This document shows positions 30,487-52,433 of a stretch of DNA of 64,000 nucleotides, in pieces (position 1 is the stretch's first letter; each line of letters begins with the position of its first letter). Position numbers and translations under genes: made by a program. This DNA is from Pseudoroseicyclus tamaricis (GTDB lineage Bacteria; Pseudomonadota; Alphaproteobacteria; Rhodobacterales; Rhodobacteraceae), in the NCBI RefSeq assembly GCF_012070395.1, contig NZ_JAAFYS010000001.1, positions 1,094,001 through 1,158,000 on the forward strand, given 5' to 3'. The notes under the pieces are model-generated. The model saw only the letters and a list, made by a program, of their open reading frames with translations. It was not told where the DNA came from and did not search any database.

Positions 30487-30786
30487 GTCGGGTCCCCATC
30501 TCGGGCGGGCCGGCGCCTGCGCCGATGCCCCTCCCTGCGGCAGTTTCTGGGTCTGCGCCGACATCACAAGCGTGCCGCGAGACGCTTGCCAGAGGGGCCC
30601 GGTCGCCGGGACGGCGCCCGCCGCCCCTGATGCGGCCGTCTTGTCGCAAAAGCCCCTGCCTTCCGCAATCGCCCTGCCGCATCGCCGCCACAGATGACGT
30701 GTTGCCACGCCGCGTCAAGGCCGTTCGCCAAACCCCGGCCGCCCCGGCTCCGGCGAATTGACCCCCCCGCGCGGAGCCCTTAGGCC

Positions 30787-48084: not shown

Positions 48085-48652
48085 GTGAGGGGGAAAAGCG
48101 GCGGCGGTGCCGGGAGGAGGATGGCACCGCCGCCTGAAAACGCACCCCTGGGAGGAGGTAGGGGCCCGTCTTGCCTTGGCGCCGCCGGGAGGAGGTGGCG
48201 TGCGCCCCCGGGCTCGCGGCAGGGAGGAGGAGAGCCGCGTCCCGGATTAGGTGGCGACAGCGCGGGAGGAGGATGCGCTGCCGCCGGATTCGATGCCCGG
48301 GAGGAGGTGGACACCAAACCAAAACTGCGTTGCGGCGACCTCCGGGAGGAGGTGGAGGTCGCCGCTACAGGCGGGACGCACGGGAGGAGGATGCGCGTCC
48401 GCCGGGTTCTGATGCCCGGGAGGAGGTGGGCACCAAACTCGAAACTGGTGCGGCGACCCCCGGGAGGAGGTGGAGGTCGCCGCTACAGGCCTGACGCCCA
48501 GGGAGGAGGAGGGGCGCCGGTCTATTCCGTCGCGGCGGTATCCGGGAGGAGGTGGATACCGCCGCTCTTGGTCAGATCCGGCCCAGGGAGGAGGAGAGGG
48601 CAGGATCGAACCGGGGCCGGGCTAGGGAGGAGGAAAGCCCGGTACCCCGAAA
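48085..48652 (-). ncRNA. CcsR-type (cuckoo) sRNA array with 14 CCUCCUCCC hairpins
   Basis: On the minus strand CCTCCTCCC occurs 14 times; on the plus strand the GGGAGGAGG units start at 48112, 48150, 48187, 48222, 48264, 48299, 48344, 48382, 48418, 48462, 48501, 48544, 48586 and 48625, a spacing of 35-45 bases. Each unit lies in the loop of its own inverted repeat; the stems differ in sequence (for example 12-bp stems around 48344 and 48544). Three stems are completed by G-U pairs only in the minus-strand RNA. The array begins three bases after the DUF1127 stop and its last hairpin is followed by CCGCTTTTCC. This is the layout of CcaF1-CcsR1-4 in Rhodobacter sphaeroides, where a DUF1127 mRNA is processed into stress sRNAs. 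Function here is inferred from that family. Confidence 0.9.
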
Positions 48653-48655
48653 CTG

Positions 48656-48883
48656 TTACTCGCCGTAAGCCGCGGTGCGGGCGACGGCCTTGATCATCGA
48701 CCGGTGCAGGCCGAGGTCGGCCAGCTCGCGATCGTTGAGGTTGCTCAGCTCCGCGATGGTGGAGCGGTAAACCCGGTTCTGCGCGGCCCGCTCGCTCACC
48801 ATGGCAAAGCCGGCACGGAAGCGCTGACCGATGGTGAAGGTCGAAGCGCGGGATGTGGTTGCATGGGCCATATCGAAACTCAT
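48656..48883 (-). CDS. DUF1127 small protein (CcaF1-like)
   Basis: 75 residues with the YjiS/DUF1127 motif TIAELSNLNDRELADLGLHR in the C-terminal half, a short basic amphipathic domain. The related CcaF1 of R. sphaeroides binds RNA and aids maturation of CcsR sRNAs transcribed from the same operon. That fits the position here, immediately before the 14-hairpin array on the same strand. Start: ATG 48883 (MSFDMAHATT); an internal ATG at residue 5 is also possible. Cotranscription with the array is expected; in Rhodobacter the operon is controlled by heat-shock sigma factors, but no clear RpoH promoter was recognised here. Confidence 0.9.
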   Translation of the reverse strand: MSFDMAHATTSRASTFTIGQRFRAGFAMVSERAAQNRVYRSTIAELSNLNDRELADLGLHRSMIKAVARTAAYGE

Positions 48884-49190
48884 CTGCTCGTGTTACCTGA
48901 TCATCGGGCTGCGTCGCGTCGGCGTTCTTGCCGTTCTGCTCTGCCACCCGGTGGCGTTGTCTGAGAGGAGATTTGGGTCATTTGCTGCGAGTGCACAATG
49001 CCCGCTTCTGCAATGCTGCCATGCGGCATGCGCATATTTCTTTTGTGGCTGGAATAATTGGCTGGCGGCAGGTGAAATGCCCACGCGATGGGCAAAAGTC
49101 AGATGGTTTTGCCTTGATCGGGGCATCGGGCGCGCTTCAGGCGCCTCCGGCCCCGGATCGTACGGTGCGAAGAAGCAACAGGAGGCCCTC
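48884..49190. other. Divergent control region between the DUF1127-sRNA operon and mrp
   Basis: 306 bases, less GC-rich in the middle than the surroundings (TTGCTGCGAGTGCACAATG; CATATTTCTTTTGTGG; AATAATTGG). It holds a GCCCA-CGCGA-TGGGC hairpin near 49079. No gene and no promoter motif that I can assign with confidence. Confidence 0.5.
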
Positions 49191-50913: not shown

Positions 50914-50945
50914 CACATTTAGGGGGTTTGAGAGGGCAGGCGCCG

Positions 50946-51458
50946 GTGAGCAGCTTCACAGGCGAACACGACCAGCGGATCGACGGGAAGGGACGTGTGT
51001 CCATCCCCATGCCGTTCCGCGGTGCCCTCGGCCAGCAGGACCCTGAGTGGACCGCCGGTCAGCCCACCCGCTTCTATCTTCAGTATTCCGACGACCTCAA
51101 AGGCTACCTGCGCGGCTGGGACGTGCGGAGCATCGAGCGTCGTCAGCGCCAGTACCAGCGCTGGGATCCCGGCCCGAAGAAGAAGCTGGCGATCCGCTAC
51201 TTCTTCCGCCAGATCTCGTTGATCGTGCTCGACAAGGACGGCCGCATGGTGCTGCCGCAGAAGCAGCGCGAGCGCCTTGGCGTTGAGGGCGATGACGAGC
51301 TGAAGTTTCTCGGCTACGGCGACTACTTCGAAATCTGGCGCGCCGAGGTGGCGGACGAGGGCGACGATCACGACGCGCTCCTCGCCCAGCTCGGCCCCGA
51401 TTTCGACCCGCAGGAACTGGCGGATCTGCCGCCCGACGATGACTTCGAGCCGGAATAG
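50946..51458 (+). CDS. mraZ: Division/cell wall cluster regulator MraZ
   Basis: 170 residues with two SpoVT/AbrB-like halves, each with the MraZ pattern: DQRIDGKGRVSIPMPFR at the start and ISLIVLDKDGRMVLPQKQRE in the middle (D-x-KGR and DGR-x-x-LP motifs). The C-terminal 30 residues are acidic. MraZ is a DNA-binding regulator of the dcw operon it heads. Start: GTG at 50946 with GAGGG upstream; a TTG at 50928 is possible but badly placed relative to AGGGGG. No clear TGGG-type MraZ box array was found. Confidence 0.93.
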   Translation: MSSFTGEHDQRIDGKGRVSIPMPFRGALGQQDPEWTAGQPTRFYLQYSDDLKGYLRGWDVRSIERRQRQYQRWDPGPKKKLAIRYFFRQISLIVLDKDGRMVLPQKQRERLGVEGDDELKFLGYGDYFEIWRAEVADEGDDHDALLAQLGPDFDPQELADLPPDDDFEPE

Positions 51459-51461
51459 GCC

Positions 51462-52433
51462 ATGGACGTGGCAGCCGCCCCGCATATCCCCGTTCTCCTC
51501 GATCCGATTCTCGACCTCGCCGCACCCGTGCGTGGCCGCTGGCTGGACGGAACGTTCGGTGCGGGCGGCTACGCGCGCGGGCTGATCGCGGCAGGCGCCG
51601 AAGAGGTCATCGGCGTGGACCGCGACCCGTCGGTCTTCCGCCTCGCCGAGGGCTGGCGCGATGACTTTCCCGGCCAGCTGACCCTGAAGGAGGGCCGCTT
51701 CAGCCAGCTCGACAGCCTCGCCGACGGTCCGCTCGACGGGGTGGTGCTCGATCTCGGCATCTCCTCCATGCAGATCGACGTGGCGGAGCGCGGCTTCTCC
51801 TTCCAGAAGGACGGCCCGCTCGACATGCGCATGTCGGGGGAGGGGCCGAGCGCCGCCGAGATCGTCAACGAGGCCTCCGAGGCCGAGCTGGCCGACATCC
51901 TCTACCTCTACGGGGAAGAGCGCGCCTCCCGCCGCATCGCCCGGGCGATTCTCGCCGCGCGGCCGCTGGCGACGACGCTGCAGCTGGCGCAGGTCATCGC
52001 CTCCGTCATGCCGCGCCAGAAGCCGGGGCAGAGCCACCCCGCGACGCGCTCCTTCCAAGCGCTGCGCATCGCGGTGAACGAGGAATATGACGAGCTGTTC
52101 CAGGGGCTTGCCGCTGCCGAGCGGGCGCTGAAGCCCGGCGGCCTGCTCGCCGTCGTCACCTTCCATTCCATCGAGGACAGGATGGTGAAGCGCTTCTTCG
52201 CGGCGCGCAGCTCCACCGGCGGCGGCTCGCGCCATGCGCCGGAGGTGACGGGGCCGGAGCCGACCTTCGAGCCGGTGACGAAGAAGGCAGTCGAGCCGGA
52301 CGAGGGCGAACTGGCCGCCAACCCGCGCGCCCGCTCGGCGCGCCTGCGGATCGGCCGGCGGACGGATGCGCCGGCGGTGGAGATGCCGCAGCCGCGCGAT
52401 CTGGGGATGCCGGTGATGAGGGGCCACAAATGA
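51462..52433 (+). CDS. rsmH: 16S rRNA (cytosine-1402-N4)-methyltransferase
   Basis: 323 residues. The SAM-binding start [15 protein letters not shown] and [13 protein letters not shown], the motif [21 protein letters not shown], the RPLATT segment, [12 protein letters not shown] and [16 protein letters not shown] are all RsmH hallmarks. It methylates C1402 in the ribosomal decoding centre. It starts three bases after mraZ, so the pair is coupled. Confidence 0.96.

Follow-up and report, generated by a model that had tools for sequence, protein, structure and literature searches.

The DUF1127 gene and its hairpin array

The window, meaning the whole 64-kb stretch of DNA that was analysed, carries on its minus strand a short DUF1127 gene followed by an array of hairpins (Table 1). 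Upstream of the DUF1127 gene, and divergent from it, lies a gene for an Mrp-type ATPase; downstream of the array, a convergent Lrp/AsnC gene is followed by a LysE gene. An open reading frame of 202 aa on the plus strand overlaps the array. Three genes of the genome score above the DUF1127 family cut-off; of these, only the array-linked one has the promoter module described below. Elsewhere in the window, mraZ and rsmH occupy 50928-52433 (+), about 2 kb from the DUF1127 gene, and an Rfam terC RNA (54.1 bits, over its gathering score) lies at 30550-30610 (-).

We counted 14 exact CCTCCTCCC units at 48112-48633 of the minus strand. The window holds 21 units on its two strands together; 1.70 were expected, and the maximum over 100 shuffles was 5. 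The start-to-start spacing of the units was 35-45 nt, and nowhere else in its genome did three or more units follow one another at gaps of 18-48 nt. When the minus strand was folded (571 nt, minimum energy -304.6 kcal/mol), all 14 motifs stayed single-stranded with a probability of 1.0, and each had a separate stem closing it. The plus strand folded equally stably (-310.8), and there 4 of the 14 motifs had a mean unpaired probability of at most 0.35. The 9-nt loop was exact in every unit, whereas the stems varied in sequence yet stayed paired. The mean stem score was 8.8 versus 4.1 with shuffled flanks, and arms paired within their own unit scored 8.6 versus 4.4 for arms swapped between units. 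Units 11 and 12, taken singly, were no better than shuffles (their scores were reached by 15% and 38% of shuffles). Hairpin 14 is followed by GCTTTT and so doubles as an intrinsic-terminator-like end.

These counts, the fold and the PF06568 match bear out the initial annotation, which had described 14 exact minus-strand units, each in the loop of a separate hairpin, with a period of 35-45 bases, behind a DUF1127 gene. Its statement that the array starts three bases past the DUF1127 stop was corrected: the first motif lies 22 nt, and the first stem about 8 nt, from the stop codon. The alternation of hairpins, the duplicated blocks, the terminator hairpin and the promoter module had escaped that annotation.

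Table 1. Features of the array locus, in window positions
Feature	Position	Strand	Remarks
Promoter box A, TGCGCATGCCGCATGGCAGCATTG	49011..49034	-	last 15 nt match the reverse complement of the published VtlR box at 13/15
Promoter box B, ATTGTGCACTCGCAGCA, TGCA-N6-GCAA	48983..48999	-	overlaps -35-like TTGTGC (48993-48998)
Putative -10-like CAAATC	48970..48975	-	17 nt from TTGTGC; assigned from its place in the aligned module
DUF1127 gene, 75 aa, CcaF1-like	48656..48883	-	PF06568, 48.1 bits
Hairpin 1	48613..48646	-	motif 48625-48633; stem scoring and fold
Hairpin 2	48571..48611	-	motif 48586-48594; stem scoring and fold
Hairpin 3, strong, 12 Watson-Crick pairs	48532..48565	-	motif 48544-48552
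Hairpin 4, weak	48488..48523	-	motif 48501-48509
Hairpin 5, strong	48450..48483	-	motif 48462-48470
Hairpin 6, weak	48405..48440	-	motif 48418-48426
Hairpin 7	48374..48400	-	motif 48382-48390
Hairpin 8, strong	48332..48365	-	motif 48344-48352
Hairpin 9, weak, 4 G-U pairs	48287..48320	-	motif 48299-48307
Hairpin 10	48252..48286	-	motif 48264-48272
Hairpin 11	48208..48246	-	motif 48222-48230
Hairpin 12	48178..48206	-	motif 48187-48195; ends from minimum-energy fold
Hairpin 13	48137..48172	-	motif 48150-48158
Hairpin 14, 12 Watson-Crick pairs, then GCTTTT	48100..48134	-	motif 48112-48120
118-bp block of three hairpins	48263..48510	-	2.1 tandem copies, 89% matches; units 5-7 and units 8-10 duplicate each other

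Unit number, growth and working strand in relatives

We searched genome samples for at least three CCTCCTCCC units at gaps of 18-48 nt. The pattern was present in 117 of the 394 genomes that sampled the family at one per genus, and in 65 of the 149 genomes of an order sample, all of the same family. In a class sample, it occurred in 1 of 385 genomes, the window's own, and in none of the 380 genomes outside the family. An array of 14 units is not unique, as at least 14 closely spaced units (12 or more triples) were found in 9 of the 394 family genomes, the window's genome included. Three species of one genus had 14, 10 and 14 triples.

We collected 65 loci, one per genome (the repeats L002-L012, L023-L037 and L092-L095 were left out), which were partly chosen for length and, counted with looser spacing, held 3 to 26 units per array. 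The 102 DUF1127 loci reached through the promoter module, among the matches listed, held 0 to 16 units, with a median of 6 and at least 14 in four of them. The count of units in relatives proposed by the initial annotation therefore spans 0 to 26. A DUF1127 gene, recognised by motif, lay within 150 nt upstream of 58 of the 65 array loci. The analysis of upstream regions used these 58, and seven were dropped (no DUF1127 gene by motif in six, a gap of 346 nt in one). For the comparison of hairpins, we used 145 arrays, a set that leaves out 22 module loci with fewer than three units and all loci without a DUF1127 gene by pattern; removal of four repeats gave 141 deduplicated arrays. In one further genome (G061, C3:157547-157849), GGGAGGAGG recurs at about 61 and 111 nt, which is probably a wider-spaced array outside the 48-nt gap limit.

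Tandem blocks like that of the window were also seen in three relatives, where blocks of 140 bp (6.5 copies), 89 bp (5.4 copies) and 110 bp (4.3 copies) contain two or three hairpins each. Judging from these repeats, array growth is, at least in part, a duplication of two- or three-hairpin blocks.

Where the RNA of one strand has a G-U pair, that of the other has an A-C mismatch. When the stems of the 141 deduplicated arrays were scored without regard to strand, 1091 G-U pairs were found versus 452 A-C pairs; 122 arrays leaned to G-U, 11 leaned to A-C and 8 were tied. This excess indicates that the CCUCCUCCC-bearing strand is the working strand, and a plus-strand function was rejected as the main reading on this bias. 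In the 145 arrays, pairing with a unit's own arm scored 8.6 versus 4.5 with the arms of other units of the same array.

Hairpin strength tended to alternate across the arrays. With non-overlapping flanks of 12 nt, the lag-1 product in 107 arrays was -0.386 versus -0.145 in permuted arrays and was negative in 92.5% of them; the lag-2 product was positive in 61.7%, and the alternation reached p<0.05 singly in 22 of the 107. The effect was smaller with 11-nt flanks (lag-1 -0.261 versus -0.132, lag-2 -0.01) and larger with 16-nt flanks (-0.599), which can overlap. In the window, the alternation slips beyond unit 6, the site of the three-hairpin duplication. Steps from a strong to a weak hairpin were longer (53.4 versus 40.8 nt) and richer in AT (0.431 versus 0.380), in 87 of the 118 arrays with both kinds of step (p 8e-9). 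The alternation and the longer, AT-richer linkers after strong hairpins fit two-hairpin processing. Compared with the array median in 117 arrays, the last unit was stronger in 81% and the first unit in 22%. Of 141 arrays, 85 had a T-run behind the last unit, versus 37 of 966 internal units; by the rule used, the other 56 arrays had none there. The whole pattern is that expected of a chain of weak-strong CcsR-like pairs, with a cut site after each pair and a terminator hairpin last.

The promoter module and its candidate regulators

The upstream regions of the array loci share a rigid module. In 55 of the 58 regions, TGCAnTTgCtGCATgGCaGCATTG is followed after 11 or 12 nt by ATTGTGCAnntGCAGCAt, and this second box overlaps a -35-like TTGTGC. 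A scan of the named genomes with GCATTG-N11/12-ATTGTGCANNYGCAGCA returned at least 117 loci, of which 111 belong to Rhodobacterales and 6 are not assignable, among the matches listed. Of the 118 module places listed, 110 had at least 400 nt of downstream sequence. Among these listed matches, a DUF1127 gene followed the module in 106 of 110 (102 by pattern, 4 by eye), and the remaining four had CCTCCTCCC units and no evident DUF1127 gene. On the same basis, at least one CCTCCTCCC unit lay within 250 nt past the stop codon in 97 of the 102 module DUF1127 loci, and of the 106 loci with enough sequence, 83 had an Mrp-type motif upstream of the module, at most 1500 nt away. The loci with units and no evident DUF1127 gene, L112, L201, L209 and L220, hold 7, 6, 4 and 2 units after the module and are perhaps RNA-only versions. 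Locus L193, with the module, a DUF1127-like gene and no CCTCCTCCC in the 1500 nt past the module, is perhaps a protein-only version.

We compared the two boxes with published operators. Box A agreed at 12 or more positions with the 15-nt Brucella VtlR box (PMC12595884) in 56 of the 58 regions versus 1 of 58 shuffled regions, a resemblance that reaches 13/15 in the window. Box B read TGCA-N6-GCAT in 51 of the 58 regions versus 1% of shuffles, and the window has GCAA for GCAT. The form TGCA-N6-GCAT is the LsrB box reported in the nfeR1 promoter (PMC10746234). LsrB is reported to drive NfeR1, and Brucella VtlR to drive DUF1127 genes and AbcR2. The VtlR-like box A and the LsrB-like box B, together with the same CCUCCUCCC loops in NfeR1, suggest that LysR-type control of DUF1127 genes and anti-Shine-Dalgarno (anti-SD) RNAs may be common to Rhizobiales and Rhodobacterales. 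We tentatively extend this to a broader proposal, which we hold to be possible but on balance doubtful. A LysR protein of the VtlR/LsrB kind would drive DUF1127 genes and anti-SD sRNAs as one old alphaproteobacterial regulon, and Rhodobacterales would have fused both into one transcript. The number of two-hairpin units would then act as a quickly changing dial for the dose, reaching up to 26 hairpins, and the duplication of two- and three-hairpin blocks would set it.

The chances are about even that the boxes belong instead to another regulator, either PhaR or only RpoHI/RpoHII. R. sphaeroides PhaR is reported to bind CTGCNNNGCAG (PMC12542648), which occurred in 37 of the 58 upstream regions versus 0.5% of shuffles; two such sites (CTGCAGTGCAG) lie upstream of the phasin-like gene of the window's genome (phaP; L096, C2 region), likely a PhaR promoter. 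However, CTGCNNNGCAG is absent from the array promoter of the window. An RpoHI/RpoHII promoter has been reported for R. sphaeroides ccaF1 (PMC10253847). A LysR protein of the VtlR/LsrB type is also disfavoured by the Agrobacterium VtlR consensus GCAT-N3-TG-N3-T (PMC7486931), which was present in just 9 of the 58 regions (4.6% of shuffles) and absent in the window. In addition, LsrB is reported to occur in Rhizobiales only (PMC11975290), the boxes of the window depart from the published forms (13/15; GCAA for GCAT), and a search beside trxB, where Rhizobiales carry the VtlR/LsrB gene, found no LysR gene in the window's genome. What speaks for the LysR protein over these other regulators is the high rate of both box A and box B against shuffles and an A-to-B spacing that is always 11 or 12 nt in the 55 regions. 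Our literature search, a weak one here since the main CcsR papers lay outside it, found no link between CcsR or Rhodobacter DUF1127 genes and a LysR protein of the VtlR/LsrB type.

Proposed working and comparison with known systems

The loops of NfeR1 are reported to silence ntrB by anti-SD pairing (PMC10746234), and the initial annotation's idea of an anti-SD action fits this published work on the same motif. In the window's genome, GGGAGGAGG was found 3-12 nt ahead of an ATG in 28 places versus 11 for the reversed pattern. Few of the 28 places held a convincing gene. The six candidate targets, chosen by eye and serving only as leads, are the urea transporter UrtD, a sugar ABC permease, a Gfo/Idh/MocA oxidoreductase, a DUF2147 protein, a LigM-type O-demethylase and a 452-aa protein of no assigned family. 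Among them, UrtD, the sugar ABC permease and the LigM-type gene bring to mind published targets of NfeR1 and CcsR, which include ABC-transporter and C1 genes. Perfect SD complements numbered 132 versus 20 for the reversed pattern in 16 array-rich genomes and 93 versus 9 in 16 array-poor ones; some of the array-rich sites lie in the arrays' own complementary strand (e.g. five in G389), and the array-poor G061 seems to hold a wide-spaced array. Co-evolution of array length with perfect SD complements was not seen in these 16 + 16 genomes. Array length does not track how many perfect sites a genome has, and this argues against SD sites being simply titrated.

Structure, strand bias and synteny place the locus with the CcsR/cuckoo (CIN1) kind, as a long run of CCUCCUCCC hairpins behind a DUF1127 gene. 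It has the exact loops, the freely varying paired stems and the short same-strand DUF1127 gene upstream that mark this kind. In R. sphaeroides, CcsR1-4 are reported to be cotranscribed with ccaF1 and matured from the ccaF1 3' UTR by RNase E (PMC8625941, PMC10253847, PMC7866481). We set the features computed here (sequence, structure, strand bias, alternation, linker bias, terminator, promoter module and synteny) beside such published relatives, from which transcription, RNase E processing, the role of the protein and mRNA silencing are carried over by analogy. We think it quite probable that the DUF1127 gene and the sRNA array form one minus-strand transcript that works in four steps. Transcription would start about 80 nt ahead of the DUF1127 ATG, at a promoter with two operator boxes that is perhaps also read by RpoH sigma factors. 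RNA polymerase would pass through the 14 hairpins and stop at hairpin 14 with TTTT behind it. RNase E would then cleave behind strong hairpins, in the linkers that are richer in AT, with the DUF1127 protein tuning the cleavage, and would yield mostly two-hairpin RNAs, weak then strong. Finally, the CCUCCUCCC loop would pair with GGGAGGAGG-type SD sites and silence chosen mRNAs, and more units would give more copies of one regulator per transcript.

Other workings account for parts of these data. The RNA might stay uncut and act as a titratable sponge, its many loops soaking up DUF1127 protein, Hfq or free SD sites, with the unit number as dose. Such a sponge would suit the 14 identical loops that lie open along one RNA, the large variation in unit number and the effect of CcaF1 on CcsR levels and maturation reported in R. 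sphaeroides (PMC10253847), but the AT-richer linkers and the alternation of hairpins point to cutting into small units. The titrating sponge suggested by the initial annotation found no support in the relatives either, where perfect SD complements before ATG were not more enriched in array-rich genomes, and we consider it unlikely. Less likely still in our estimate, and very improbable, is that the hairpins serve only as 3'-UTR structure, stabilising the DUF1127 mRNA and ending transcription with no function in trans. The position of the array directly past the stop codon and the terminator-like last hairpin would be explained, but a structural role sits poorly with a 9-nt loop that is exact in 14 of 14 units while the stems differ and keep pairing, with the four module loci that have units and no evident DUF1127 gene, and with the reported action in trans of the same loop in NfeR1 (PMC10746234).

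We give hardly any credence to chance, a DNA-level repeat or a function of the plus strand only. Tandem block duplications do occur, and the plus-strand open reading frame does overlap the array; against this, none of the 100 shuffles came near the observed count, G-U pairs prevail over A-C pairs, and the 35-45 nt spacing keeps no reading frame. A coding function was rejected on the same break of frame.

The locus is real and long, but ordinary in kind. New in this analysis are the weak-strong tendency, the growth of arrays through duplicated blocks, the broad span of unit numbers, and the rigid promoter module with its lead to VtlR/LsrB-type or PhaR control. Across relatives, a single promoter module, protein family and loop recur, with the loop in up to 26 copies; this natural series makes the effect of sRNA copy number directly testable. 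The module also offers a handle on what turns on CcsR-type RNAs, and may connect Rhodobacterales to the work on VtlR/LsrB in Rhizobiales.

At the gathering scores, Rfam called neither CcsR1 nor ar14 at the array locus. In a permissive search of 861 nt, the best match to CcsR1 (RF02791) scored 44.9 bits (E 1.3e-9; gathering score 65.3), and the best two to ar14 (RF02344) scored 57.1 and 56.3 bits (E about 1e-9; gathering score 58.8). Among further families, ar7 gave an E of 8.8e-5 and the rest 0.08 and above. Because both gathering scores were missed, the locus is filed under neither family. The covariance search proposed by the initial annotation thus gave matches at E values of about 1e-9 that fell short of the gathering scores. 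Its placing of the locus with CcaF1/CcsR holds on the order of the locus, the loop motif, the hairpins and the sub-threshold matches to CcsR1 and ar14.

The locus resembles ccaF1-CcsR1-4 of Rhodobacter (Cereibacter) sphaeroides in its order, a DUF1127 gene and then hairpins with CCUCCUCCC loops, and in the terminator reported at the end of that locus (PMC10253847). The Rfam CcsR1 model is an 83-nt RNA of two CCUCCUCCC hairpins, with a GCGGCGG stem in the second, and shares the weak-then-strong order, whereas full-length matches to it reached 39.6-44.9 bits against the gathering score of 65.3. The window has 14 hairpins, and R. sphaeroides, whose locus is known here from descriptions and the Rfam model, has four CcsR RNAs. 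If each of these were built as in the CcsR1 model, the four would amount to eight hairpins, and the 14 hairpins to about seven equivalents. The expansion from 4 to 14 claimed by the initial annotation is therefore right as to a long array and overstated as a ratio, in a family of loci with 0 to 26 units. The boxes of this locus resemble those ahead of DUF1127 genes or anti-SD sRNAs in the VtlR/LsrB regulon of Rhizobiales (DUF1127 genes, AbcR2, NfeR1), whereas the Agrobacterium consensus is mostly missing here and a cognate LysR protein is hypothetical. The CCUCCUCCC loops are likewise those of alpha-r14/NfeR1 of rhizobia (RF02344 ar14), a three-hairpin RNA; in contrast, that RNA has its own promoter and gene, with no DUF1127 gene mentioned. 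With the cuckoo RNAs/CIN1 (Reinkensmeier and Giegerich 2015), the array shares the conserved loop motif, the free helix sequence and the DUF1127 neighbour (PMC10253847, PMC4504443). The motif as described there comprises 2-4 hairpins (PMC4504443), whereas the array of the window has 14 in one run.
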